In this document: positions 1-13,087 of the stretch, piece by piece
Layout of the letters: the number at the start of each line of letters is the position of its first letter
Numbering within the stretch: position 1 is the stretch's first letter
Assembly: GCF_000165795.1 (NCBI RefSeq)
Contig: NZ_CM001022.1
Span: forward strand, 2,141,812 to 2,205,811
Origin: Aminomonas paucivorans DSM 12260
Lineage (GTDB): Bacteria; Synergistota; Synergistia; Synergistales; Synergistaceae
Length of the DNA stretch: 64,000 nt
Direction of reading: 5' to 3'
Made by a program: the position numbers and the translations under genes
The notes under the pieces: model-generated
What the model was told of the DNA's origin: nothing
Seen by the model: only the letters and a program-made list of their open reading frames with translations
Databases searched by the model: none

Positions 1-635
1 GCGTCCACCTGATCCCGCCGGGTGGCCCGGCGGTGGTGGCGCTTCCACTCCTTGTAGTGGTTGATGCCCCCCATCACCAGGCCCAGGGTCAGAAAGCCCC
101 CGGGGGCCAGGATGAGGATGAGGGCGGGCTGGAAGGCGTGGGGCATCACGGGGATCCCGAAGACCGTCCCTGCTCCCAGGGCCTCCCGGATGATCCCCAG
201 GACGACCAGCGCCACGGTGAAACCCAGTCCCATGCCCAGCCCGTCGAAGAGGGAGGGGATCACCCCGTTCTTGGAGGCGTAGGCCTCCGCCCGGGCCAGG
301 ATGATGCAGTTCACCACGATGAGGGGGATGAAGATCCCCAGGGACTTGTCCAGGGCCGGGGCGTAGGCCGCCACGAAGAACTGGATGAGGGTCACGAAGC
401 CCGCGATGAGGACGATGAACGCGGGGATGCGGATCTCCGAGGGGATGAACCGCCGCAGGGCCGCCACGGCCACGTTGGACCCCATGAGCACCGCCGTGGC
501 CGCCAGCCCCATGCCCACCCCGTTGACGGCGCTGGTGGTGACCGCCAGGGTGGGACAGAGCCCGATGACCTGCACGAAGGTGGGGTTCTCGTCCAGGACC
601 CCCGCCCGAATTCGTTGGATCGCCGACTGGATCAT
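1..635 (-). CDS. rnfE: RnfE, Rnf complex membrane subunit (C-terminal end cut by window edge)
   Basis: Integral membrane subunit of the Rnf complex, which couples electron flow between reduced ferredoxin and NAD to ion translocation across the cytoplasmic membrane. About 211 residues are visible in frame to the window edge with no stop, so only a short C-terminal piece is missing (family members are about 200-230 residues). The translation begins MIQSAIQRIR and has the family pattern NPTFVQVIGLCPTLAVT near residue 18, followed by several hydrophobic helices. Its ATG overlaps the stop of rnfG (ATGA at 632-635), indicating translational coupling. Gene order C-D-G-E matches the clostridial rnfCDGEAB layout, so rnfA and rnfB are expected just outside the window. 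Confidence 0.93.
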   Translation of the reverse strand, partial: MIQSAIQRIRAGVLDENPTFVQVIGLCPTLAVTTSAVNGVGMGLAATAVLMGSNVAVAALRRFIPSEIRIPAFIVLIAGFVTLIQFFVAAYAPALDKSLGIFIPLIVVNCIILARAEAYASKNGVIPSLFDGLGMGLGFTVALVVLGIIREALGAGTVFGIPVMPHAFQPALILILAPGGFLTLGLVMGGINHYKEWKRHHRRATRRDQVD

Positions 636-1198
636 GGTCTCGCCCCTTCCGCGAAGTGCTTCTTCCAGGCTTCCACCGCGTCGTTCACGCCCCCGACGAA
701 GGCCCGGGAGGTGATGGTGGCTCCGGAGATGGCCTGGATGTCCTGGGGATCCGCCGGAGGGGTCTTCACCACCTTCAGGGGCTCCGCTCTCTTGCCGGCG
801 AACTGCCCGGAGAAGGAAGGCTCCCCCGCGTTGGCCCCCAATCCGGGGGTCTCCCCCTGGCTCAGGATGCGGATGCCCCGCACCACCCCGTCCCGGGAGA
901 TGCCCACTACGAAGACCACGGGACCCGCATACCCCTTGGGCGCCACGGTGAACACGTGTCCCAGCACCGATCCGCCCTTGCGTCCCTCCTGCACCTCCCG
1001 GACCAGCGACCCCGGAGGCACCGGCAGGGAGGAGAAGGAGTCCGCCCCGGGCAGGGACGCCCGGAAGGCCTCCTGGCGCTGCCGCTCCTGGGTGGCCCGG
1101 ATGGGTTCCAGAGTGATCTCGTGGGCCAGGCCCAGGATCAGGCCGGTGGCAGCGGTGATGGCCAGCAGGACGAGGCCCAGCTTCAGGTTCTTGCCCAC
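632..1198 (-). CDS. rnfG: RnfG, flavin-carrying Rnf subunit
   Basis: Rnf subunit with one N-terminal membrane anchor (about residues 7-25) and an FMN-binding domain outside the membrane. The motif SGATITS at residues 158-164 is the family's flavinylation site; Thr161 is the expected attachment residue for covalent FMN. Length (188 residues) is normal. The start is GTG at 1198, and the stop of the upstream gene rnfD lies at 1200-1202, so the two genes are separated by one base. The stop overlaps the start of rnfE. Covalent flavin loading usually needs an ApbE flavin transferase, which is not in this window. Confidence 0.95.
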   Translation of the reverse strand: MGKNLKLGLVLLAITAATGLILGLAHEITLEPIRATQERQRQEAFRASLPGADSFSSLPVPPGSLVREVQEGRKGGSVLGHVFTVAPKGYAGPVVFVVGISRDGVVRGIRILSQGETPGLGANAGEPSFSGQFAGKRAEPLKVVKTPPADPQDIQAISGATITSRAFVGGVNDAVEAWKKHFAEGARP

Positions 1199-1199
1199 G

Positions 1200-2147
1200 T
1201 CACTTCACCTCCTGCCCGAAGATCCGGGGCTGGAAGAACCGATCGATGAGGGGCACCGTGAGGTTCATGATGAGGATGGAGTAGGAGACCCCTTCGGGAT
1301 AGCCCCCGTAGAGGCGGATCAGGGTGGTGAGCACCCCGCATCCGAAGGCGAAGACCATCTGTCCCGACTTGTCCATGGGGGAGGTGGCGTAGTCCGTGGC
1401 CATGAAGATGGCCCCCAGGAAGAGCCCCCCGGCGCACACCTCGTAGAAGGCGTCCGCGGGGATCCCCGCGCCCCGCCCCAGGATCCAGGAGAGGAGCCCC
1501 ACGGTGAGGATGTAGGTCACGGGGATGTGCCAGGTGATGACCCGCTCCAGAAGCAGCAGCGCCCCTCCCAGGAGAAGGGCCAGGGCGGAGGTCTCGCCGA
1601 TGCACCCCCCCACATGCCCCAGGAACACGTCCAGGAAGGGGGGCAGGGACGCCCCTGCGGCCTCCGTCCCCTTGAGGATCGCCAAGGGGGTGGGTCCCGT
1701 CACTCCGTCCAGGGTCCAGGTGGTCATAGGGACGGGCCAGCAGGTGAGCATCACCGCCCGGGCCGCCAGGGCGGGGTTGACCACGTTCTTCCCCAACCCC
1801 CCGTAGAGCTGCTTCACCACCAGGATGGCGAAGGCGCTTCCTGCGGCGGCCATCCAGAGGGGGATGGAAGGAGGCAGGTTGTAGGCCAGGAGGAGCCCCG
1901 TCACGGCGGCGGAGAGGTCCGAGACGGTGACGGGACGCCCGGTGAGCTTCTGCCACAGGGCCTCCGTCCCCACCGACGAGGCGGTACAGGTGACGATGAC
2001 CCAGAAGGCGGGGACCCCGAAGGTGACCACCCCCATGAAGCCCGCGGGGAGCAGCGCCAGGAGCACCATCCTCATGATGCTCCGCACGGTCTGGGGGCCG
2101 TGAAGGTGCGGGGAGCTGGAAACCACCAGCAGCCGGTTCGTGGTCAT
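1200..2147 (-). CDS. rnfD: RnfD, membrane FMN subunit of the Rnf complex
   Basis: Polytopic membrane subunit of Rnf, related to NqrB, which carries a covalent flavin. The 315-residue protein has about nine hydrophobic segments and the conserved pattern GKNVVNPALAARAVM near residues 119-133. The flavin attachment region reads DGVTGPTPLAI at residues 147-157, making Thr153 the likely attachment residue. The usual signature is S/T-G-A-T, so the Ala to Pro change is a small deviation. The gene sits 3 bases downstream of rnfC and 1 base upstream of rnfG within one operon. Confidence 0.95.
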   Translation of the reverse strand: MTTNRLLVVSSSPHLHGPQTVRSIMRMVLLALLPAGFMGVVTFGVPAFWVIVTCTASSVGTEALWQKLTGRPVTVSDLSAAVTGLLLAYNLPPSIPLWMAAAGSAFAILVVKQLYGGLGKNVVNPALAARAVMLTCWPVPMTTWTLDGVTGPTPLAILKGTEAAGASLPPFLDVFLGHVGGCIGETSALALLLGGALLLLERVITWHIPVTYILTVGLLSWILGRGAGIPADAFYEVCAGGLFLGAIFMATDYATSPMDKSGQMVFAFGCGVLTTLIRLYGGYPEGVSYSILIMNLTVPLIDRFFQPRIFGQEVK

Positions 2148-2150
2148 GGC

Positions 2151-3482
2151 TCAGGCCGCTCCTTTCCGCCGTCGGGCCGCCACGGTGCGCTTCCCGTCCC
2201 GGCACGCCTGGGTAAGGTGCCGCTTGGAGGGACAGGCGTAGGCGCAGCAGCCGCACTCCAGACAGTTCATGCCCCCCTGGGCCTCGAAGGCGTCGTAGTC
2301 CCGCCGGATGACCGCCGCGTTCAGGGCGAAGGGCAGCAGCCCCATGGGACACACCTCCACGCACTTGCCGCAACGGATGCAGGCCGACTCGGGGGGCGTC
2401 ATCGCCGCCCCCTCGGTGAAGGCCAGAAGGCCCGAGGTGCCCTTCACCACCGGCACGTCCAGGGTGCTCAGGGCCACCCCCATGAGAGGGCCTCCCGCCA
2501 GCACCTTAGCGGGTTCCGCCCGGAAGCCTCCCGCCCCGTCCACCAGGTCCAGCACCGAGGTGCCCAGGCGGACGTGGAGGTTCTTGGGCTCCCGGATCGC
2601 GTTGCCCGACACGGTGACGATGCGGTCCGTAACCGGACGCCCCAGGACCACGGCGTTCCAGATCTGGTGCACCGTGCGGACGTTGAGCATCAGGCAGCCC
2701 ACGTCGGCGGGGAGCCCCCCGCAGGGCACCTCCTGCCCCGTGAGGGCGTAGATCATCATCTTTTCCGCCCCCTGGGGGTATTTGGTGCGCACCGGGAAGA
2801 CTTCGATGTGGGCCTGACCCGTGACCACCCTCCCCAGGGTCTCGATGGCCTCGGGCTTGTTGTCCTCCACGGCGATGTGCCCCTTCACGCCTCCGGGGAA
2901 AAGGCTCAGGACGATGCGAAGCCCCTCCAGGATGTGGTCCGCCTCCTCCACCATGAGGCGGTCGTCGCAGGTGAGGTAGGGTTCGCACTCCGCCCCGTTG
3001 ACGATGACGTGCCGGATGACCTTGTCCGGAGGGGGGGAGAGCTTCACTGCCGTGGGGAAACACGCCCCTCCCATCCCCACGATGCCCGCCTCCCGGACGA
3101 TGCGCCGGATCTCCCCCGGATCCAGCAGGGAGACGTTGTCCCGAGGGTGGATCGACGGGTCCTGTTCGTAGAGCCCGTCGTTCTCCACCACCACGGACAG
3201 CTCCAGGTTGCCGGAAATGGCCAACCGGGGCGCCACGTCCCGCACCGTTCCGGACACGGAGGCGTGGATGGGGGCGGAGACGAAGGCTTCCGCCTCCCCG
3301 ATCTTCTGCCCCACCAGCACGCGGTCTCCCCGCTTCACCAGGGGGACGCAGGGAGCACCGATGTGCTGCACCATGGGATAGACCAGCTCACGGGTGGGAA
3401 GAAGCGATTCGATGGGCTTGCACTCCGTGGCGCTCTTGCGATGGGGGGGGTGGGCCCCCTTCTTGAACGTGGGGAAGGGCAT
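2151..3482 (-). CDS. rnfC: RnfC, NADH-dehydrogenase-type Fe-S subunit of the Rnf complex
   Basis: Peripheral subunit of Rnf thought to interact with NAD(H) and carry two [4Fe-4S] clusters. The 443-residue protein has an N-terminal RnfC barrel/sandwich domain, a nucleotide-binding region around residues 130-150 (GIVGMGGACFPTAVKL) and two ferredoxin motifs, CIRCGKCVEVCP at about 368-379 and CLECGCCAYACP at about 407-418. It is the first gene of the operon. A Rex-like palindrome and a candidate extended -10 lie immediately upstream. The start ATG at 3482 has GGAGG seven bases upstream. Confidence 0.95.
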   Translation of the reverse strand: MPFPTFKKGAHPPHRKSATECKPIESLLPTRELVYPMVQHIGAPCVPLVKRGDRVLVGQKIGEAEAFVSAPIHASVSGTVRDVAPRLAISGNLELSVVVENDGLYEQDPSIHPRDNVSLLDPGEIRRIVREAGIVGMGGACFPTAVKLSPPPDKVIRHVIVNGAECEPYLTCDDRLMVEEADHILEGLRIVLSLFPGGVKGHIAVEDNKPEAIETLGRVVTGQAHIEVFPVRTKYPQGAEKMMIYALTGQEVPCGGLPADVGCLMLNVRTVHQIWNAVVLGRPVTDRIVTVSGNAIREPKNLHVRLGTSVLDLVDGAGGFRAEPAKVLAGGPLMGVALSTLDVPVVKGTSGLLAFTEGAAMTPPESACIRCGKCVEVCPMGLLPFALNAAVIRRDYDAFEAQGGMNCLECGCCAYACPSKRHLTQACRDGKRTVAARRRKGAA

Positions 3483-3615: not shown

Positions 3616-4293
3616 CTACTTTCCCGCCGCTCCTTCGATCCCTTCCCTCAGGGGGACGAAGCGACAGTCCTCTCCCCATCGGTCCCGGAAGCCCTCGGAG
3701 GTCCGTTCCCGCACCAGGATCCGCTGGAAGCCCCGTCCCGTCTCCAGGGGCAGCACCAGCCTCCCCCCCGGGGCCAGCTGCTCCTGCCAGGGCAACTCCA
3801 CCCGGGGGCAGGCCGCCGCCACGAGGATGCGGTGGTACGGGGCCCCGGGGGGCCACCCCAGGCGCCCGTCGGCACACCGGACCTCCACGGGGAGTCCCAG
3901 GTCCGCCAGGGTCCGGGCCGCCCGCTCTGCCAGGGAGGCGACGCGCTCCACCCCCACGACGGTGCAGCCCAGCCGGGCCAGCACCGCCGCCTGGTAGCCC
4001 GATCCGGTACCCACCTCCAGCACCTTCATCCCCGGCTCCGCCCCCAACAGCTCCGTCATCCGGGCCACCATGTAGGGCTGGGAAACCGTCTGTCCCCTGC
4101 CGATGGAAAGGGGAAAGTCCCCGTAGGCCGCCTCCAGCTCTTCCTCCGAGGGGGTCTCCCCCAGAGAGGGAACGAACCGATGCCGGGGCAGGGAGGCCAG
4201 GATCGCCAGGACGCCCTCGTCCCGCACCCCCCGGCGGCGGATCTGCCCCTCCGTCATGGCCTCGGCGAAGAGCCTCCAGTCCAGGACCTCCAT
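3616..4293 (-). CDS. pcm: Protein-L-isoaspartate O-methyltransferase
   Basis: SAM-dependent cytoplasmic methyltransferase that initiates repair of isoaspartyl residues in aged proteins. The 225-residue protein has SAM motif I, VLEVGTGSGYQAAVLARLG, starting at residue 91, and the substrate-loop signature GRGQTVSQPYMVARM at about residues 65-79. Length is typical. It is the last gene of the luxE-luxC-ferredoxin operon, starting 9 bases after the upstream stop, with AGGGGG five bases before the ATG. Its link to aldehyde metabolism, if any, is unknown and may be incidental. Confidence 0.9.
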   Translation of the reverse strand: MEVLDWRLFAEAMTEGQIRRRGVRDEGVLAILASLPRHRFVPSLGETPSEEELEAAYGDFPLSIGRGQTVSQPYMVARMTELLGAEPGMKVLEVGTGSGYQAAVLARLGCTVVGVERVASLAERAARTLADLGLPVEVRCADGRLGWPPGAPYHRILVAAACPRVELPWQEQLAPGGRLVLPLETGRGFQRILVRERTSEGFRDRWGEDCRFVPLREGIEGAAGK

Positions 4294-4302
4294 GGGGTCC
4301 CC

Positions 4303-5106
4303 CTAGGCCCCGGCGGGACGGCCGTCCTCGGGAATCTCCGGGTCCGCCGCCCGATAGGGCACCGCCCCCTTGGGGAGGCGCACCGCATCGTGGGGGCACA
4401 CGGCGGCGCAGCGCTGGCAGACCACGCACCGATCCTGCCACACCGGCAGCAGCCCCTCCTGCCAGGCGATGTTCCCCGCGGGACAGAGCCGGGCACAGCG
4501 GCCGCAGCGCACGCACCGGTCCGGGTCGGCGGAGAATTCGCTGAAGGAGCTGTGGGCCATCCAGTTCCAGACGAACCGGGATCGCCCCAGGCTCTGGAGG
4601 GGACCCGCCAGGCCGGAGCCCTTCCAGGGCTGCCGTCCCGTCCGCAGGGCCTCCCCGAAGGCCCGGGCCGCCGCCTCCCCCGCCGCCAGGATCTCCTGGT
4701 CCCGTTCCGTGGGGGCAGCCTCCTTGCGGAGGTAGTTGCTGGGCATGATAAACTCCCGATACCCGTAAGGGGTGTATCCCTTGCGACGCACCAGGGCCCG
4801 GACCGCGCCCCCGAGGCCCAAAGCTGCCCCTGCCATGGTGGCGAAGGCGAACAGGGGCTTCCCCCGCCCCGGAGGGAGGGCCTGAAGGGCCTCCCAGACG
4901 GGGGGATAGGTGGTGAAGGCCGCCACGGGGAACCCCACCCCCAGCAGATCCGCTCCCTCCAGGTCCTCCTCCCGAAACCCCCGCTCCAGGGGCGCCAGAC
5001 GCACGGATGCCCCCGCCTCCACGAAGACCCCCTCCAGGGCCCGGGCCGCCCTCAGAGTGTTGCCGGTGCCGCTGAAGACGTACATCGCCACGCTGTCCCA
5101 CGTCAT
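4303..5106 (-). CDS. EFR1-type flavodoxin-ferredoxin fusion
   Basis: Predicted cytoplasmic electron carrier. The N-terminal half is flavodoxin-like, with the FMN phosphate loop FSGTGNTLRAA at about residues 11-21. The C-terminal half has two [4Fe-4S] ferredoxin motifs, CVRCGRCARLCP (198-209) and CVVCQRCAAVCP (227-238). This layout is that of EFR1-family ferredoxins found in anaerobes. It begins 3 bases after the LuxC-ligase stop (GGGAGG precedes the ATG), so it is probably co-translated with it and could supply or accept electrons for that pathway. The partner is inferred from position only. Confidence 0.85.
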   Translation of the reverse strand: MTWDSVAMYVFSGTGNTLRAARALEGVFVEAGASVRLAPLERGFREEDLEGADLLGVGFPVAAFTTYPPVWEALQALPPGRGKPLFAFATMAGAALGLGGAVRALVRRKGYTPYGYREFIMPSNYLRKEAAPTERDQEILAAGEAAARAFGEALRTGRQPWKGSGLAGPLQSLGRSRFVWNWMAHSSFSEFSADPDRCVRCGRCARLCPAGNIAWQEGLLPVWQDRCVVCQRCAAVCPHDAVRLPKGAVPYRAADPEIPEDGRPAGA

Positions 5107-5109
5107 GGG

Positions 5110-7755
5110 CTAGATCCTCCCGTCTCGAATCCTCCGGATCTTGCCGGTACGCTGCACCCGCTCCAGGGTCCCCGGGGCGGTCACCCGCACCGCCAGGTCC
5201 TCCAGAGCCCGGTTGCGGGGGTCCCGGTAGACCGCCGCCTCCTCCAGCACCGCCTCCAGGGCCCGGGCCTCCAGGGCCGGGTCCCCCACCCAGGGCCCCT
5301 CCCGGAGGGCCTCCACGGCGAAGGTGACCCCCGTGCGCCCTCCCTCCTTCGGGTCCACCTGCACCTGGAACGCCCCGGAAAGCTCCTCGAACCGTCCGAA
5401 GGCGGAGGCCACCTCGCTCAGGTGGAGCTTGCCGAAGTGCACCCGCACGTAGTCCCCCAGGCGGCCCCGAAGGCGAAAACGCGGGGAGGTGCGCCCGCAG
5501 GGGCAGGGCTCCTCCAGCCACTCCGCCGCGTCCCCCAGGCGGTAGCGGATGAAGGGGTGCAGGGTCCGCTCCAGGGCGGTGACCACCACCTCCCCCTCCT
5601 CTCCCAGGATCTCCTGGTGGCACCACTCGTCGCAGAGGTGGAAGGTGGTGGCGTCGCAGTGGGGACACTGGTACCCCTGGGGGCCGATCTCCACCGCCCC
5701 GTAGAGGGGAGAGGCCACCAGGGAACAGCGGAACACCTTCTGGAGGTACCGCCGGGTCACCTCCGACAGAGGTTCTCCGGTGAAGAAGATCCGCTCCACG
5801 GGGGTGTCGAACCCCCTCCGCTCCGCCGTCTCCGCCAGGGAGAGGAGGGCGGAGGACATGGCCATGATCCCGTGGGGGCGGAACTCCGCGAGAAAATCCA
5901 GGGTGTCCCGGTTGTCCTGGTTGAAGGTGAGGGAGAGGACCTGGCACCCCGTTTCCTCCAGCCCCCGGTTGAAGGCCAGGAAGCCCGTCCACAGGGCCCC
6001 CGCCCGCAGGAGGTTGGCCACCCGCATCCCCGAACGGATCCCCAGGGCCCGGAAGGCCCGGCCCGTCACCAGCCCCGCCCGGTCGAACTCCTCCGCTCCC
6101 CAGAGGGCGTACCGAGGCTTGCCTGTGGTGCCCCCGGAGGCGAAGACGTAGGAGCGCTCCTCGGAGCGGGTGAGCATGTCCCGGCTCGCCGGGGGACAGT
6201 GGGCCACCAGGTCCGCCTTCTCCAGGAGGGGAACCCGGGCGGAGAACTCCTCCAGAGAATCCAGGGGGCCGGAGACACCCGCGAGGCGCTCCCGGTAGAA
6301 GGGGCTCCTTCGGGCCTCGTCCAGCAGGGCGTTGAGCCGGGCCAGCACCCGACCCTCCCGCTCCTCCCGGGGACGCCACTCCAGTCCGAAGAGGTCCGGG
6401 GACAGGTCCTCCCGGTTCAGCAGGCGCACCAGGTCCAGGGGGATCTGGCGTCCGTCGTGAGCCCCCTCCACGTCTCCTCCCAGGCCCATGGTGCCGGCCC
6501 GGCAGAACCGCAGGACCCCCAGCCCCGCCAGGGCCTCCACGACCTCCTGCACTCGATTGTCGGGCCCGGCGATGCCCGCGGTGGACAGGTAGCCGTCCAG
6601 GAGGCTCAGGCTGCCGGAGAGGAGGTCTTCCGCCCGGCCCACCGCCTGCACGAAGAGGGTGCGGTTCAGGGGAGAGGGGATCACGTCGGTCCCCCGGCCC
6701 GCCAGGAGGGTGAAGTGGGGGTCCTCCACCAGACACCCCTGGCCGCAGTGCTCCCGCCAGGCCCCCAGTTCCCGCTCCACGCGCACCTCCACCGCCTCGT
6801 GGATCCCCAGGGCACCCCGGGGCAGTCCCGCCGCCAGGTTCCTCATGGCATCCTCCAACAGAGGGAGGAACCGGTCCATCAGGTCCTCTCCCTCCACGAA
6901 GAGGTTCTGGCAGCTGGTGCAGGCCCGCTGCTCCCACAGGGAGGCGTCCTTGGCGAAGCCCGCCGCCGCCGCCTTCAGGCCTGCGTCGTCCAGACCCCGG
7001 AGGAGCACCCCGAAGCTGATCTTGGGGCCGAAGGCCAGCACCTGGGTCCGGGGGCTCAGGCGTTGTTTGTAGGCCCGCACCGCTTCTTCCCCCCCGAAGA
7101 GGAGCACCGCGTCGCAGACCTCCCTCACCCGGTCGTCCACCTCCCCCGCGTCGTGGGGCCAGTAGGTGGCGGCCTGGAAGGGAGCCAGCTCCCCCTTGGG
7201 GTCCGCCTCCTCCAGGGCCTCCAGGAAGAGGAAGGGGAAGACCGGGTCCTGGCGGGAGACCTTGAGGATGTTCACGTTCTTGGTGATCATGCCGAAGAGC
7301 AGGGAGTCCACGGAGCCCAGGAAGATGTTCCCCGCGGCGATGTGGCACACCGTCCCCAGGGGAAGGGCCCGGGCCACCCGGCCGTGCCGCAGGGGCAGGA
7401 AGCCGTCCAGGACCCGAGGGGTTCCCAGGCAGGCCAGACGCCCCTCCAGGGTCCGCCGAGTGAGCAGCCGCTCCAGGATGGACAGGCCCAGCTCCACCCC
7501 CTGGAGGGAGTACCCCGTCACCCCCGGCATGGTCTCCAGGAGGATCCGCCGGTAGCGCCCCTCCGGACAGGTGAGAAGCCGCCCGGTGCGCTCCAGGATC
7601 CCCAGGATAGTGTCCAGGGGCGTGCGGCGGCAGAGGCGGCTGCGCTCCTCCAGGGCCCGCCGGTCGAAGAGCTTTGCCGCCTCCTCCTCCGGGAGCCGCT
7701 CTCCCAGATCCGCCCACCGGCCGAACAGATAGTGTCGCTTCCAGGCCTCGCTCAT
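5110..7755 (-). CDS. LuxC-type acyl reductase fused to an AMP-forming acyl ligase (PaaK/LuxE-like)
   Basis: Two-domain, 881-residue protein. Residues 1 to about 430 match the LuxC acyl-CoA/acyl-protein reductase family: the nucleotide-binding signature HIAAGNIFLGSVDSL is at 138-152, LTKN-like ITKNVNILKVS at 157-167, and candidate active-site cysteines are Cys279 and Cys282 (RACTSCQ). LuxC reduces an acyl thioester to an aldehyde with NADPH. From about 440 to the end is an adenylate-forming ligase of the phenylacetate-CoA ligase type with the P-loop-like SGGTTGKPRYALWG near residue 538, a CxxC pair (CPHC), and CPCGRTSPRFRLRGR near residue 720. The start ATG at 7755 overlaps the luxE stop (ATGA). 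The substrate (fatty or aromatic acid) cannot be told from sequence. Confidence 0.85.
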   Translation of the reverse strand: MSEAWKRHYLFGRWADLGERLPEEEAAKLFDRRALEERSRLCRRTPLDTILGILERTGRLLTCPEGRYRRILLETMPGVTGYSLQGVELGLSILERLLTRRTLEGRLACLGTPRVLDGFLPLRHGRVARALPLGTVCHIAAGNIFLGSVDSLLFGMITKNVNILKVSRQDPVFPFLFLEALEEADPKGELAPFQAATYWPHDAGEVDDRVREVCDAVLLFGGEEAVRAYKQRLSPRTQVLAFGPKISFGVLLRGLDDAGLKAAAAGFAKDASLWEQRACTSCQNLFVEGEDLMDRFLPLLEDAMRNLAAGLPRGALGIHEAVEVRVERELGAWREHCGQGCLVEDPHFTLLAGRGTDVIPSPLNRTLFVQAVGRAEDLLSGSLSLLDGYLSTAGIAGPDNRVQEVVEALAGLGVLRFCRAGTMGLGGDVEGAHDGRQIPLDLVRLLNREDLSPDLFGLEWRPREEREGRVLARLNALLDEARRSPFYRERLAGVSGPLDSLEEFSARVPLLEKADLVAHCPPASRDMLTRSEERSYVFASGGTTGKPRYALWGAEEFDRAGLVTGRAFRALGIRSGMRVANLLRAGALWTGFLAFNRGLEETGCQVLSLTFNQDNRDTLDFLAEFRPHGIMAMSSALLSLAETAERRGFDTPVERIFFTGEPLSEVTRRYLQKVFRCSLVASPLYGAVEIGPQGYQCPHCDATTFHLCDEWCHQEILGEEGEVVVTALERTLHPFIRYRLGDAAEWLEEPCPCGRTSPRFRLRGRLGDYVRVHFGKLHLSEVASAFGRFEELSGAFQVQVDPKEGGRTGVTFAVEALREGPWVGDPALEARALEAVLEEAAVYRDPRNRALEDLAVRVTAPGTLERVQRTGKIRRIRDGRI

Positions 7756-8903
7756 CGGGCCGTCCCTCCCCTTCGGTTCAGGATCTCCTGGGCCGCCACG
7801 GCGCAGCCCTTGTGCTGGTGCACCCCGCCCCGGCGCACCGACGCCAGGTAGTCCCCGGGCAGACCGCAGGGGCAGTCTCGTCCCAGCACCGCCAGGTCTG
7901 AGGAGAGCACCGCCTGGTTGGGCTGCGCCCCGTTGTAGGGGGTCAGAAGCTCCAGCAGCCCCTCCTGACCGTGAGGCAGGATCTCCAGGGTCAGGGGGTC
8001 CCGCACCAGCATCCGCCCGAAGACGGGCACGTGGTGGTGGCCGAAACGGCAGGCCCCGTAGGGGACCCCGTGTTCCGCCATGCCGAAGGTGTCCCGCACT
8101 CGTTCCGCGGGCAGGCCCACGGTCTCCTCCGCGAAGGCGGCGAAGGCCGCCGCGGTCATGGGGGTGCCCCCGTGGCTCTTCCAGCCTCCCCCCGCCAGGA
8201 GGAAACTCCGGGGGTGCACCTTCACCCCCGGGCTCAGCCGGGCGGCCTCCAGGAAGGCCCGGTGCATGAAGGCGGGGAAGCCCACCAGCCGCAGGGGGGC
8301 ATCGTCCTTCCGTTCCAGGAGGTACCGGGCCGCCTCCTCCGGGTCGAAGTCGAAGGCTCCGGAGGGGTCCCGGCGGATGAGCCAGCGGACGCTCTTGGCG
8401 GGGGCGCAGGCCATCTTCTGGGCGGCGCTCCAGGAGGTGCCCACGTCGGAGGCCTCCGAGGGATCGTAGCCGAACATCAGGTAGTGGGCCGGCTCGGGAT
8501 CGCAGAATCCCAGGGCCCGGAACACCGCCCGGCCCATGCCCTCCACCCGGGCCAGGCTGTCCCGGTCCAGGCAGAGCTGGGTCTTCTGCCCTCCCGTGCC
8601 GGAGCTGGTGAGGGTGAGGGCCACTTCCTCCTCCGGGATGCTCAGGAACCGGTGCAGCTTCATCACCCCCGCGAAGAGGGGGGGGAGGCGCCGCCAGTCC
8701 CCCGGCTCGGGGCTCAGGGGAGGATGAAAGCGGAAGCGCTGTGCCAGATGGTCCAGGTAGGGCTGCCGGGGACGGTGGAAGGCGTCGCACTCCGCCATGG
8801 CCTCGGCGAAGAGGCGCTCCGCCTCCGGGGAGTCCTCGAAGACCGCCGGGTGGGCCACCAGGGCATCCACCTGGGGAAGGTGCGGGAGCTGGGATTGCGG
8901 CAT
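7752..8903 (-). CDS. LuxE-family acyl-protein synthetase
   Basis: Member of the LuxE family, which activates a carboxylic acid as acyl-AMP and then carries the acyl group on a cysteine before passing it to LuxC. The 383-residue length fits LuxE (about 370-380). The AMP-binding loop TSSGTGGQKTQL lies at residues 99-110. A cysteine 16 residues from the C-terminus (Cys367, in HKGCAVAAQE) matches the near-C-terminal acyl-accepting cysteine of luminous-bacteria LuxE. I chose ATG 8903 because AAGGGGG precedes it at good spacing; an in-frame ATG at 8999 lacks such a site. First gene of the operon; no luxA, luxB or luxD is nearby. Confidence 0.87.
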   Translation of the reverse strand: MPQSQLPHLPQVDALVAHPAVFEDSPEAERLFAEAMAECDAFHRPRQPYLDHLAQRFRFHPPLSPEPGDWRRLPPLFAGVMKLHRFLSIPEEEVALTLTSSGTGGQKTQLCLDRDSLARVEGMGRAVFRALGFCDPEPAHYLMFGYDPSEASDVGTSWSAAQKMACAPAKSVRWLIRRDPSGAFDFDPEEAARYLLERKDDAPLRLVGFPAFMHRAFLEAARLSPGVKVHPRSFLLAGGGWKSHGGTPMTAAAFAAFAEETVGLPAERVRDTFGMAEHGVPYGACRFGHHHVPVFGRMLVRDPLTLEILPHGQEGLLELLTPYNGAQPNQAVLSSDLAVLGRDCPCGLPGDYLASVRRGGVHQHKGCAVAAQEILNRRGGTAR

Positions 8904-8954: not shown

Positions 8955-8983
8955 ATCATAGCGAAAGGGAGACCATCGGTCAG
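8955..8983 (-). promoter_or_regulatory. Candidate promoter of the luxE-luxC operon
   Basis: On the minus strand CTGACC (8983-8978) and TATGAT (8960-8955) are separated by 17 bases, a sigma-70-like arrangement about 50 bases upstream of the luxE start. Confidence 0.45.
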
Positions 8984-9076: not shown

Positions 9077-10555
9077 GTGCTGGAGAAGGTGGATCTGAAG
9101 CGCAAACTGGAGAAGGGGACCTTCAAGACCCTGGCCCCGGACCTGCGGGAGCGGCTGGGGGAGCTGCAGCGCCGGGCCAAAGACCTGGACATCCCCGTGG
9201 GAGTGGTCTTCGAGGGATGGGACGGGGCGGGCAAGGGCACCCTGATGAACGAGCTGATCCTGGCCCTGGACCCCCGGGGCTTCCAGGTACACAACGTGGG
9301 GGGGCCCACGGAGGACGGACGCTTCTGGCCCCCCATGAGGCGTTTCTGGAAGCTCCTGCCTCCCCGGGGGCGGATGGCCCTGTACAACCGGAGCTGGTAC
9401 CGCCGGGTCCTGGAGGACCCCCTGGAGGAAGGGGCCTTCGAGGAGATCCTCTCCTTCGAACGGCAGCTGGCCCAGGACGGATACCTGATCGTCAAGTTCT
9501 TCCTCCACATCTCCAAGAAGGAACAGAAGAAGCGCCTCCAGGCCCTGGAGGCGGACCCCGCCACCAGCTGGCGGGTGACGGATCAGGACTGGGAGCACCA
9601 CAAGCGCTACGACCGCACGGAGACCCTGGTGGAAAGCATGCTCCAACGCACCGACAAGGGGCACGCCCCCTGGACGCTGGTGGAGGCCCACGACCGGGAG
9701 TACGCCACCGTCAAGATCCTCACCACGGTGATCCAGGCACTGGAGCAGCAGATCGCCCGGGTGGAGGCGGCCCGGGCACTGGGAGCTGCGCCGACGCCCC
9801 CGCTGGTCACCCGATCCACCCCGGACCCCCTCAAGCCCGCCATCCTCCGCAGCCTGGACCTGGACCTTTCGGTGGCCCAGAAGGAGTACAAGAAACAGCT
9901 CAAGGAGCTTCAGGAGCGGCTTCGGGACATCCAGTACGAACTCTACCGGGTCCGGCGCCCCCTGGTGGTGGCCTTCGAGGGCCCCGACGCGGCGGGCAAG
10001 GGGGGGTGCATCAAACGCCTCACCCAGGAGCTGGACCCCCGGGGCTACCAGGTGGTCCCCACCTCCGCCCCCAACGACTGGGAGCGGGCACACCACTATC
10101 TGTGGCGCTTCTGGACCGCCTTCCCCAAGGCAGGACACGTGGGCATCTTCGACCGGAGCTGGTACGGCCGGGTCCTGGTGGAGCGGGTGGAGGGCTTCTG
10201 CTCCGAGGGGGAGTGGCGCCGGGCCTACGGGGAGATCAACGAGATGGAGGAGCAGTGGGTCCGCAGCGGGGCCCTGATGGTGAAGTTCTGGCTCCACATC
10301 AGCCAGGAGGAGCAGCTCCGGCGCTTCGAGGAACGGGAGAAGACCCCCTGCAAGAACTGGAAGATCACCCCCGAGGACTGGCGAAACCGGGAGAAGTGGC
10401 CCCGCCACGAGGAGGCGGCGGAGGAGATGCTCCTGCGCACCAGCACCCCCGGGGCTCCCTGGGTGGTGGTGGAGGCCAACTGCAAGGAATACGCCCGCCT
10501 CAAGGTGCTCCGGAAAGTGGTGGAGACGGCGGAAGGGGGCCTGGGGAAGAAGTAG
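9077..10555 (+). CDS. pap: Polyphosphate:AMP phosphotransferase (two-domain PPK2 class II)
   Basis: Transfers phosphate from polyphosphate to AMP, making ADP. The protein has two fused PPK2 domains: the first has Walker A EGWDGAGKGT at residues 46-55, the second EGPDAAGKGG at about 301-310, each followed by the lid pattern NRSWYRRVL or DRSWYGRVL. The 492-residue length fits two-domain class II enzymes. I chose GTG 9077 because GGGAGGTGG precedes it; upstream in-frame codons lack a ribosome site. Its 3' end overlaps the convergent Na/Pi cotransporter gene by 56 bases. Together with that gene and ppx it makes a phosphate/polyphosphate module. Confidence 0.93.
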   Translation: MLEKVDLKRKLEKGTFKTLAPDLRERLGELQRRAKDLDIPVGVVFEGWDGAGKGTLMNELILALDPRGFQVHNVGGPTEDGRFWPPMRRFWKLLPPRGRMALYNRSWYRRVLEDPLEEGAFEEILSFERQLAQDGYLIVKFFLHISKKEQKKRLQALEADPATSWRVTDQDWEHHKRYDRTETLVESMLQRTDKGHAPWTLVEAHDREYATVKILTTVIQALEQQIARVEAARALGAAPTPPLVTRSTPDPLKPAILRSLDLDLSVAQKEYKKQLKELQERLRDIQYELYRVRRPLVVAFEGPDAAGKGGCIKRLTQELDPRGYQVVPTSAPNDWERAHHYLWRFWTAFPKAGHVGIFDRSWYGRVLVERVEGFCSEGEWRRAYGEINEMEEQWVRSGALMVKFWLHISQEEQLRRFEEREKTPCKNWKITPEDWRNREKWPRHEEAAEEMLLRTSTPGAPWVVVEANCKEYARLKVLRKVVETAEGGLGKK

Positions 10556-12146
10556 GTTCCGGCGAGGGGGCGGAAGGGGTGATCCCCCGCTCCCTCACCA
10601 TTTCCTGGGCGTACCGGGCCAGGGACCCGAAGGCCTCCAGGAGCGACCAGGCCTCCTGCCGGGGGGTGCGGGACCCCGCCCCCGAGTCTCCCCCGGCCCA
10701 CCCTCCGTTCCAGGCTCCCTCCTGGACCTCGTAGCGTCGGAAGGCCCTCCTGGCCCGCTCTGCCAGGGACTCGTCCCCCAGAGCGAAGGCTCCCAGGGCA
10801 TCCCGCAGCAGCTCCTTGAGGGTCTCGTAGAGCCCCGACCAGCCGGGGGCACGGGAGAGGCTGACCCCTTCCCGGTGATGGAAACGCATCGCCGGACCGC
10901 TCAGGTCCTGCGCCAGGGTCCGGGCCAGTCCTCCCATGGAAAGGAGGGGAAACTCGTACTCCCCGTAGGCCCGACGCCGCGTCTCCGGATCCGGGAACTC
11001 CAGGGAGTCCAGGTACCCCACGCAGGACTCCGCCAGGTCCGGCAGTCCCCTGCGGAACCGCTCGATCCGCTCCTCCTCCTGGGGGCTCTCCGCTAGCAGG
11101 TAGAGGAAGGTCTCCAGCAGGTTGGCCAGACGGCTCATCTCCCGGTCCAACAGCTTCAGGGCCAGCCCGGGGACCCGGGCCAGGGTGTCGTCCAGGAACT
11201 GGGGCTCCCCCACCGCCTCCGCCCCGGCAAACCAGCGTCCCGCCAGGGACGCCAGGGCCCCCGCCAGGGGGATGCCCAGCAGGGCGTTGAGCCCCGTCAC
11301 CCCCGCCCCGATCCAGGGCACCGCCTGGGCGGGGGAGATCCCCGCCCCCTCCAGGAGCTGCACCAGCCAGGGAACCAGGGGAAGGACCGCCAGGGCCCCG
11401 CAGAGCTTGTACAGGCAGGTGGCCGCCCCCAGGCGGCGGGCGTTGCGCTTGGCCCCCAGGCTGGAGAGCAGCACCGGGGCGGCGGACCCCACGTGGGCCC
11501 CCAGCACCAGGGGGACCAGGGCACCCAGGGAGAGGACCCCCGAGGAGGCCAGGGCGATCCCCAGGGCCAGGACGGCGGAGCTGCTCTGGAGCAGCGCCGT
11601 GACGGCCAGGGCTGCCCCTCCCAGGACCAGGGGCCACCGGGAGGCCCCGAGGATCAGCTCCCGGGCCTGGGAGGTGCGCATCAGGGGGTCCACCCCCAGC
11701 TTGATGAGGAACATCCCCAGGAGCACCAACCCCAGACCCCGCACCACCTGACCGGCGGTGCGCCACCGACCCCGACCCAGCAGGGCCGCCCCGGAACCCG
11801 CCGCCAGCACCGCCGGGGCCAGGACCCCCACGTCCAGGCTCAGGAGGAACGTCACCGCCGCGGCCCCCACGCTGGCCCCCATCATCACCAGCAGGGAACC
11901 GGCGAAGGGGAGGGCTCCCAGGTCCACCAGCCCCACGGCGAAGGAGGTGGCCACGGAACTGCTCTGGGAGAGGACGGACAGGAGCGCCCCGAAGCAGAAG
12001 GCCCCGGAGGTCCGGGAAGCCAGGCGCCCGAGAAAGGCCCGTTCGTCCCCCCCCAGGGCGGAACGGCTCGCCCGGGTGCTCTCCTCCACCCCGAAGAGGA
12101 ACAGAGCCAGTCCCCCCAGGAGGGCCACCACCCCCGATACCACCAC
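10500..12146 (-). CDS. Na+/phosphate cotransporter family protein (NptA/YjbB type)
   Basis: Predicted sodium-dependent phosphate transporter in the cytoplasmic membrane. The N-terminal 300 residues contain two related repeats, each with the family's signature QSSS (SVLSQSSSVATS near residue 59 and TALLQSSSAVLAL near residue 184), and about eight helices. The C-terminal 200 residues are a soluble helical region resembling the PhoU-like domain common in this family, ending in a Pro/Ser-rich tail. The start is taken as GTG 12146, 5 bases after the ppx stop. The stop falls inside the convergent pap gene (56-base overlap). Linkage to ppx and pap supports phosphate rather than another solute. Confidence 0.87.
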   Translation of the reverse strand: MVVSGVVALLGGLALFLFGVEESTRASRSALGGDERAFLGRLASRTSGAFCFGALLSVLSQSSSVATSFAVGLVDLGALPFAGSLLVMMGASVGAAAVTFLLSLDVGVLAPAVLAAGSGAALLGRGRWRTAGQVVRGLGLVLLGMFLIKLGVDPLMRTSQARELILGASRWPLVLGGAALAVTALLQSSSAVLALGIALASSGVLSLGALVPLVLGAHVGSAAPVLLSSLGAKRNARRLGAATCLYKLCGALAVLPLVPWLVQLLEGAGISPAQAVPWIGAGVTGLNALLGIPLAGALASLAGRWFAGAEAVGEPQFLDDTLARVPGLALKLLDREMSRLANLLETFLYLLAESPQEEERIERFRRGLPDLAESCVGYLDSLEFPDPETRRRAYGEYEFPLLSMGGLARTLAQDLSGPAMRFHHREGVSLSRAPGWSGLYETLKELLRDALGAFALGDESLAERARRAFRRYEVQEGAWNGGWAGGDSGAGSRTPRQEAWSLLEAFGSLARYAQEMVRERGITPSAPSPEPTSSPGPLPPSPPLSGAP

Positions 12147-12151
12147 GGCGG

Positions 12152-13087
12152 CTAGATCCTCTCCCCCGCCAGCAGGGCCTCCAGCACCCCGTAGCGCAGC
12201 CCCCGGTCGCTGGCCACGAGGGCGGGGGCGTCGAAGGCATCCAGGACGGCCTCCACGATGCAGGCCCCCGCCAGGACGATCTCCGCCCGCTTGGGATGCA
12301 GCCCCGGGAGGGCCTTGCGCTCCTCCACCTTCAGGGACCGGTACAGGTCGATCTGGCGACGCACCTCCCGGGCCTCCAGGGAAAACCCCGTCACCCGATC
12401 CGGGTCGTAGGCGGTCAGGCCGAGGGCCACGGAGACCAGTGTGGTCACGGTGCCCCCCACCCCCACCAGGACGGGGCCCAGGGGCCGGGCTTGGGCGATC
12501 AGCTCCGCCGCCTCCGCCAACCCTTCCCGGGCGGCTCGGCACGCGGCCTCGCAGGAGGAGAGGGAGACCGGGTCCTCCCCCGCCAGGAAGCGGTCGTGGA
12601 GGAACAGGGCCCCCAAGGGAAGGCTGCGCCGGAGGGAGATCCCCTCCGGAGAGCCCAGGATGAACTCCGTGCTCCCCCCCCCGGTGTCGAAGACCACCCG
12701 GGGGCCCGGGATCCCCAGACGGGAGGAGGCGGCCCGAAAGGCCAGGCGGGCCTCCTCTTCCCCCGGAAGGACCCGCACCTCCACCCCCACCTCCGCCAGG
12801 AGGCGCGCCGCGAAGGCCTCCCCGTTTCGGGCGGTGCGAAAGCCCATGGTCCCCACCGCGGCGATCCGCCGGGCTCCCAAATCCCGAGCCTGCTTCGCCA
12901 GGACCCGGACCGCCCCCAGCCCCCGCTCCATGGCCTCCGGGGAGAAGACCCCCGTGGAGGTCAGGCCGTCCCCCAGACGGACGATCTCCTGCCGATCCAG
13001 GAGGGGCACCAGGCGTCCCCCTTCCTCCCGGGCCACCAGGAGTTTGATGGAATTGGTCCCCAGGTCCAGTACCGCCACGGGCTCCAT
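12152..13087 (-). CDS. ppx: Exopolyphosphatase, Ppx/GppA family
   Basis: Cytoplasmic phosphohydrolase of the actin-like ASKHA fold that releases phosphate from polyphosphate or converts pppGpp to ppGpp. The 311-residue protein has phosphate-1 motif VLDLGTNSIKLL at residues 6-17 and phosphate-2 motif VVFDTGGGSTEFIL near residue 135; it lacks the long C-terminal domain of E. coli Ppx, so it is the short form. ATG 13087 is preceded by GGGAGGTGGGGG; an upstream in-frame extension to 13213 has no such site and overlaps the divergent promoter region. It is the first gene of a two-gene operon with the Na/Pi transporter. Confidence 0.9.
   Translation of the reverse strand: MEPVAVLDLGTNSIKLLVAREEGGRLVPLLDRQEIVRLGDGLTSTGVFSPEAMERGLGAVRVLAKQARDLGARRIAAVGTMGFRTARNGEAFAARLLAEVGVEVRVLPGEEEARLAFRAASSRLGIPGPRVVFDTGGGSTEFILGSPEGISLRRSLPLGALFLHDRFLAGEDPVSLSSCEAACRAAREGLAEAAELIAQARPLGPVLVGVGGTVTTLVSVALGLTAYDPDRVTGFSLEAREVRRQIDLYRSLKVEERKALPGLHPKRAEIVLAGACIVEAVLDAFDAPALVASDRGLRYGVLEALLAGERI

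Follow-up and report, generated by a model that had tools for sequence, protein, structure and literature searches.

A LuxC reductase fused to an AMP-forming ligase, with conserved LuxE, GNAT and MFS_3 companions, recurs in at least five phyla

Introduction

LuxC and LuxE classically reduce long-chain fatty acids, and, to our knowledge, discussion of their chemistry is usually confined to light. In the LuxC–LuxE fatty acid reductase of luminous bacteria (PDB 7xc6), LuxE carries a cysteine near its C-terminus and LuxC is a thioester reductase with a catalytic cysteine. The locus described here shares both features. It differs in having no luciferase, in a LuxC that carries a C-terminal PaaK-type ligase, in its companions (a GNAT protein, an MFS_3 transporter and partner-switch genes) and in scores that fall far under those required by the NCBIfam equivalogs for LuxE and LuxC.

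LuxC/LuxE proteins without luciferase are already known. RfbN of the Vibrio cholerae O-antigen is a LuxE-domain protein that represents LuxE without luciferase (PMC4772473), and non-luminous LuxC/LuxE clusters are present in other Synergistota (loci L042–L048). Both resemble the present locus in having LuxE and/or LuxC together with an AMP-forming enzyme and no luciferase. The PaaK-like aryl acid ligases (PaaK1/2, NatL2, ClxA and BT_0428) have the fold and motifs seen in the C-terminal half of the fusion; here, however, this half is joined to an acyl reductase, and all curated models score under their cut-offs. Known GNATs whose activity is gated by cAMP or by an amino acid regulate acetyl-CoA synthetases (PMC8556138; PMC6434083). 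These cAMP-GNAT and ACT-GNAT proteins share with the GNAT companion described below an N-terminal regulatory domain followed by a GNAT, in genomes with AMP-forming ligases, whereas the regulatory domain of the companion is RsbW-like and its C-terminal half resembles a second GNAT unit. We found no description of a LuxC:ligase with the GNAT, MFS and partner-switch set in the open-access literature, most subscription papers being outside the scope of that search. It is this combination of the LuxC:ligase fusion with the GNAT/MFS/partner-switch set that appears to be new.

Results

Organization of the luxE locus in Aminomonas paucivorans

The window, that is, the whole stretch of DNA analysed, is a 64-kb part of the single-contig 2.63-Mb genome of A. 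paucivorans DSM 12260. A sequence-only reading had described four tightly spaced genes in it, encoding LuxE, a LuxC-ligase, EFR1 and Pcm, and all four were recovered where it had placed them, on the minus strand. The features of the locus and its flank are as follows:

8955..8983, minus strand: sigma-70-like promoter 5' of luxE (CTGACC-17-TATGAT; 0.1 expected in shuffles)
7752..8903, minus strand: LuxE-type acyl-protein synthetase, 383 aa (PF04443, E=6.6e-28)
6391..7755, minus strand: fusion, LuxC acyl reductase part (residues ~1-455; PF05893, E=1.1e-60)
5110..6390, minus strand: fusion, PaaK-type AMP-forming ligase part (residues ~456-881; phmmer matches to PDB PaaK and 4r1l)
4303..5106, minus strand: EFR1 family flavodoxin-ferredoxin (NF038196), co-directional neighbour of luxC:ligase
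3616..4293, minus strand: Pcm, protein-L-isoaspartate O-methyltransferase (PF01135, E=1.9e-50; NF001453 above cut-off)
632..3482, minus strand: rnfC-rnfD-rnfG (TIGR01945, PF03116, FMN_bind), Rnf operon, outside the cassette
3..635, minus strand: rnfE, continuing the flanking Rnf operon

The fusion gene as a whole (5110-7755) encodes 881 aa, of which PF05893 spans residues 45-437 and the PaaK-type part residues ~460-880. It overlaps luxE by 4 nt and is separated from the EFR1 gene by 3 nt, with a further gap of 9 nt between EFR1 and pcm. The Rnf operon (rnfC, D, G and E; 3-3482) starts 133 nt past pcm on the same strand. Upstream of luxE and divergent from it is a gene for a polyphosphate:AMP phosphotransferase-like tandem PPK2 protein (9077-10555, plus strand), followed by genes for a Na/Pi cotransporter-like protein (10500-12146, minus strand) and a Ppx/GppA-like protein (12152-13087, minus strand). 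These three were named by eye from their sequences, and the region 9077-13087 is apparently a polyphosphate/phosphate cluster. An anti-phage defence role for the locus was rejected, since PADLOC gave no match save a methyltransferase overlap for Pcm.

LuxE and the LuxC–ligase fusion retain their catalytic residues

The near-C-terminal cysteine of LuxE (HKGC; codon 7803-7805) aligns with the KGC of Photobacterium LuxE (7xc6), and this acyl-accepting residue is invariant across 13 aligned sequences; the protein also carries the nucleotide-binding motif TSSGTGG. In the LuxC part, the stretch EQRACTSCQ aligns with the active-site stretch DQQACFSTQ of Photobacterium LuxC in the same structure, and the catalytic Cys279 (codon 6919-6921) is invariant in the aligned relatives. 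The ligase half contains ASGGTTGKPR, RYRLGD and TGKIRR(I), motifs whose cores are strongly conserved, and Lys872 in the TGKIRRI catalytic loop (codon 5140-5142) is invariant in relatives as well. Neither activating domain has lost its catalytic residues on alignment. This agrees with the earlier description of a LuxE with a near-C-terminal cysteine (PF04443 plus HKGC) and of a LuxC (PF05893) fused to a second, PaaK-type AMP-forming ligase, which gives two acid-activating enzymes per reductase.

An AlphaFold2 model of the fusion (mean pLDDT 76.9, pTM 0.51) predicts credible individual domains, but their mutual arrangement is uncertain. In Foldseek searches, the ligase half matched 4rvn (E=3e-27), with BT_0428, PaaK1/2, NatL2 and ClxA also among its matches, and the other half matched LuxC of 7xc6. 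By sequence, the three parts belong to the LuxE (PF04443 and the near-C-terminal cysteine), LuxC (PF05893 and the catalytic cysteine) and PaaK-type ligase (motifs and lysine) families. Their scores against the NCBIfam equivalogs were much lower than the cut-offs: 62 bits versus 550 for LuxE against the long-chain fatty acid LuxE equivalog, 106 versus 750 for the LuxC part, and 105-109 versus 646-700 for the ligase part against the PaaK equivalogs. No NCBIfam equivalog reached its cut-off for the LuxC:ligase fusion.

The fusion is rare, patchy and found in genomes without luciferase

PF00296, the bacterial luciferase family, had no match in the whole source genome, and none was found in the 12 other fusion genomes searched; 10 out of 14 control genomes matched. 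The absence of luciferase from all 13 fusion genomes searched rules out a bioluminescence lux operon, and the sequence-only reading of LuxC/LuxE without luciferase thus holds genome-wide, including for luxAB located elsewhere.

Among 188 Synergistota genomes, a fusion of 870-916 aa was present in 12, belonging to families f1, f4, f5 and f7, and a 13th genome contained a fragment. The source genome is the only member of its family with the fusion in this dataset. The LuxC family splits in two within the 188 genomes, other Synergistota having a separate, short LuxC of mostly ~400 aa. A scan of named genomes also retrieved the fusion from Clostridium, Vallitalea, Holophagales, Bacteroidia, Desulfobacteraceae and Geobacter MAGs, and its sampled frequency was 8/277 in the Geobacter class, 1/149 in the Holophagales class and 2/392 in the Vallitalea order. 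The fusion is therefore not confined to the source genome: 12 further Synergistota and members of several more phyla carry it, and it recurs across at least five phyla in a rare and patchy fashion. The lineages that bear it are largely anaerobic. Such a patchy, rare and largely anaerobic distribution suggests that the fusion may have spread by horizontal transfer.

The short LuxC proteins have a different setting. Loci L042-L048, in other Synergistota, encode an unfused LuxC of ~400 aa, LuxE, an AMP-ligase, a small ACP, SDR-type proteins and transketolase halves (named by eye), a carbohydrate-type context with companions other than those of the fusion. The occurrence of such ACP-, SDR- and transketolase-containing clusters within the phylum, together with the RfbN precedent (PMC4772473), could be taken to mean that the fusion loci modify sugar acids of polysaccharides, as in the short clusters or in the V. 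cholerae O-antigen. We regard this as very improbable: ACP, SDR and transketolase are missing from the fusion loci, and the reductases are distant, with 23-31% identity between short LuxC loci and the fusion. The different companions and the distant reductase likewise rule out that the fusion cassette and the short LuxC clusters are the same system.

EFR1, Pcm and Rnf do not accompany the fusion elsewhere

The EFR1 protein scores 114.9 bits against NF038196 (cut-off 75) and has two CxxCxxCxxxC 4Fe-4S motifs. Its gene lies 3 nt past luxC:ligase, its cluster motifs are intact and an Rnf operon follows pcm, an arrangement compatible with an acid-to-aldehyde or acid-to-alcohol system fed with electrons by EFR1 and perhaps by Rnf. 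Nevertheless, a search of 31 further loci with the fusion, drawn from 27 different genomes and in some cases with short flanks, gave no match to EFR1, Pcm or Rnf. EFR1 homologues (E<=1e-25) were present in 56 out of 188 Synergistota genomes, 55 of them fusion-free; the 12 fusion genomes of the phylum apart from the source all lacked them, although the negative association between EFR1 and the fusion across the 188 genomes is not significant (p=0.11). Conversely, at the 29 further EFR1 loci inspected, no luxE, pcm or rnf lay within ~1.5 kb. Moreover, LuxC-family reductases take their electrons from NAD(P)H.

Fusion neighbourhoods and genome-wide distribution thus rule out EFR1 and Rnf as partners of the system in general, and a role for them as its electron source is very unlikely. 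EFR1 could be co-transcribed and useful in the source organism alone. The earlier proposal of a carboxylic-acid-to-aldehyde system keeps its first half, which is still the best reading of the chemistry, and loses its link to EFR1: the ferredoxin protein is not supported as a redox partner, and the luxE/luxC-ligase/EFR1 gene order was seen at 0/31 other fusion loci.

GNAT, MFS_3 and partner-switch genes are the conserved companions

A uniform annotation was applied to 26 loci, the source locus and 25 others, several of which end at contig ends. Among the 25, LuxE was present in 24, a GNAT in 24 and an MFS_3 protein in 18. The genes are arranged as GNAT-LuxE-LuxC:ligase-MFS in Synergistota f7 and Holophagales, LuxC:ligase-GNAT-LuxE-MFS in Synergistota f5, GNAT-LuxE-LuxC:ligase in Synergistota f4 and MFS-GNAT-LuxE-LuxC:ligase in the Vallitalea type and Bacteroidia. 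In most Desulfuromonadia, the order is MFS, a 454-aa unassigned protein, a standalone PaaK, LuxE, LuxC:ligase and GNAT. The unassigned protein of ~454 aa (L090:5849-7225; homologues in L084-L089) had no Pfam or NCBIfam family match, and one such protein gave a weak local match to the LuxC:ligase fusion.

The MFS companion belongs to the MFS_3 family, akin to EntS and a drug-efflux group, that is, to drug and siderophore exporters. This affiliation bears on whether the cassette, in place of making an exported small molecule, supplies fatty aldehyde to wax-type products or to membrane lipids such as plasmalogens or ether lipids. Long-chain fatty acids are the classic substrates of LuxC and LuxE, and homology to 7xc6 extends to the proteins studied here. 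Yet the transporter resembles drug and siderophore exporters, no lipid genes were recognized as conserved in the clusters, and the nearest solved relatives of the ligase include aryl-acid ligases (PaaK, NatL2 and ClxA), which makes a lipid destination decidedly unlikely.

The GNAT companion is a tandem GNAT, preceded in most lineages by a HATPase_c_2 domain at the N-terminus. In a structural model of the protein, this HATPase domain is matched by RsbW from the RsbV/RsbW complex of B. subtilis (TM 0.94, normalised by target), and the domain after it by many GNATs. Genes for STAS, SpoIIE (Cache-HAMP-SpoIIE) and HATPase proteins flank several cassette clusters, and in Holophagales a single run reads STAS-SpoIIE-GNAT-LuxE-LuxC:ligase-MFS. 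The partner-switch genes (RsbW-like HATPase, STAS and SpoIIE) are thus in cis in several lineages; in the source genome they are in trans, beside the GNAT gene.

Residues Glu237, Arg248, His280 and Gln284 (L061 numbering) are invariant in the first GNAT unit, which argues that some kind of catalysis has been retained. Most other Synergistota, and Holophagales, retain the N-box Asn and G1-box Asp of the HATPase-GNAT, while the source genome copy has lost both and Desulfuromonadia have lost the N-box Asn. In addition, the CoA-binding loop of the GNAT is often non-canonical in several lineages. Activity as a kinase therefore cannot be taken for granted, nor can the use of acetyl-CoA. In Clostridia the GNATs are without the HATPase domain, and partner switching is therefore not universal.

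These features bear on a further explanation, a sharper form of the GNAT step in our favoured one (see Discussion), in which the GNAT is chiefly regulatory: an acyltransferase gated by the partner switch would turn the AMP-forming ligases off by modifying a lysine of their catalytic loop, which in the fusion is Lys872. The invariant TGK motif of the ligase, the RsbW-like domain fused to the GNAT in most lineages and the SpoIIE/STAS neighbours are consistent with it, and there is a precedent in regulatory-domain-GNAT fusions that acetylate lysines of acetyl-CoA synthetase (PMC8556138; PMC6434083). The HATPase and GNAT P-loop motifs are, however, degenerate in several lineages, the source genome included, and the Clostridial copies have no HATPase, so that we rate a chiefly regulatory GNAT as rather unlikely.

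Several loci showed individual peculiarities. In Clostridium sp. UBA1056 (L060:7208-8845), an in-frame MFS-like segment precedes the GNAT, possibly an MFS-GNAT fusion or a remnant. In one genome of the Geobacter class (L085:11778-18807), genes for three proteins with weak leukocidin/hemolysin-family matches and C-terminal BACON domains are interleaved with those for LuxE and LuxC:ligase. Schlafen/AlbA_2 proteins adjoin the fusion in two MAGs (L059:932-2323; L064:2490-6870), and in L064 an NRPS (A-PCP-C) is next along after them. In a partner-switch module adjoining the cassette, the gene for an NMT1/THI5-like periplasmic binding protein (L088:17145-18152) separates those for STAS/HATPase from that for SpoIIE, and a truncated protein (L035:16909-17379) may be similar to it.

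The GNAT tracks the fusion across Synergistota, and the cassette appears split in the source genome

Across the 188 Synergistota genomes, a HATPase-GNAT profile matched exactly the 13 that have the fusion and none of the 175 others. In one of the 13, the fragmentary genome G113, the match is a weak GNAT-only paralogue, giving a clean count of 12/13 versus 0/175. The probability of the overlap arising by chance is 2.6e-20 when computed per genome, a value inflated by the shared ancestry of the Synergistota genomes, and 1.7e-6 when counted as 4 out of 63 genera.

The source luxE locus has neither an MFS_3 nor a GNAT gene in cis, and the best MFS match elsewhere in the genome has only 27% identity. 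The GNAT gene of this genome (L053; 2581475-2582902) is located ~430 kb from luxC, with STAS and SpoIIE genes and a weakly matching HATPase gene next to it. In phylogenetic trees, L053 clusters with GNATs from f5 and f4, and the source LuxC likewise with the LuxC proteins of these two families (supports moderate). L054, a second HATPase-GNAT copy in the source genome, was rejected as the ortholog, tree and identity both favouring L053. The simplest reading of these sequence data is that the cassette has become split in the source lineage.

Discussion

The explanation we favour, to which we give about an even chance, is that a conserved, largely anaerobic cassette (GNAT-LuxE-LuxC:ligase-MFS_3, often with SpoIIE/STAS) makes and exports a small aldehyde-derived molecule. 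The genes present, their conservation and co-occurrence, and the intactness of the catalytic residues are established, whereas all that concerns substrate, product and regulation is inferred. Judging from the conserved residues and known LuxE chemistry, LuxE would turn a carboxylic acid into an acyl-AMP and then into an acyl-cysteine near its C-terminus. The acyl group would, by family chemistry, move to Cys279 of LuxC, where the thioester would be reduced to an aldehyde with NAD(P)H. The fused PaaK-type ligase may activate a second acid, possibly an aryl acid, for building the product, a role suggested by its family. The GNAT would then acylate the product or, instead, act as a protein acyltransferase on Lys872 of the ligase, and in many lineages its RsbW-like domain may couple it to the Cache-HAMP-SpoIIE/STAS partner switch. 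Finally, MFS_3 would export the product.

The second ligase in the fusion implies a second activated acid. Given the extra standalone PaaK-type enzyme in most Desulfuromonadia, a multi-component product fits better than bulk aldehyde supply, and secretion fits the presence of an MFS_3 exporter. A bolder version would have this undescribed, horizontally scattered anaerobe cassette export an aldehyde-derived, possibly signalling molecule, with its acid-activating enzymes switched by a new class of acyltransferase, a GNAT gated by an RsbW-type partner-switch domain in place of cAMP or an amino acid; we put this forward as speculative and rather unlikely.

The fused LuxC-ligase occurs in at least five phyla, without luciferase wherever this was searched and with a fixed set of partners, and in Synergistota the GNAT follows it genome by genome, even where the genes are now apart. 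With fixed partners and this tracking, the function can be tested on a defined set of genes. The cassette points to an exported metabolite of anaerobes, perhaps to partner-switch signalling tied to acid activation.
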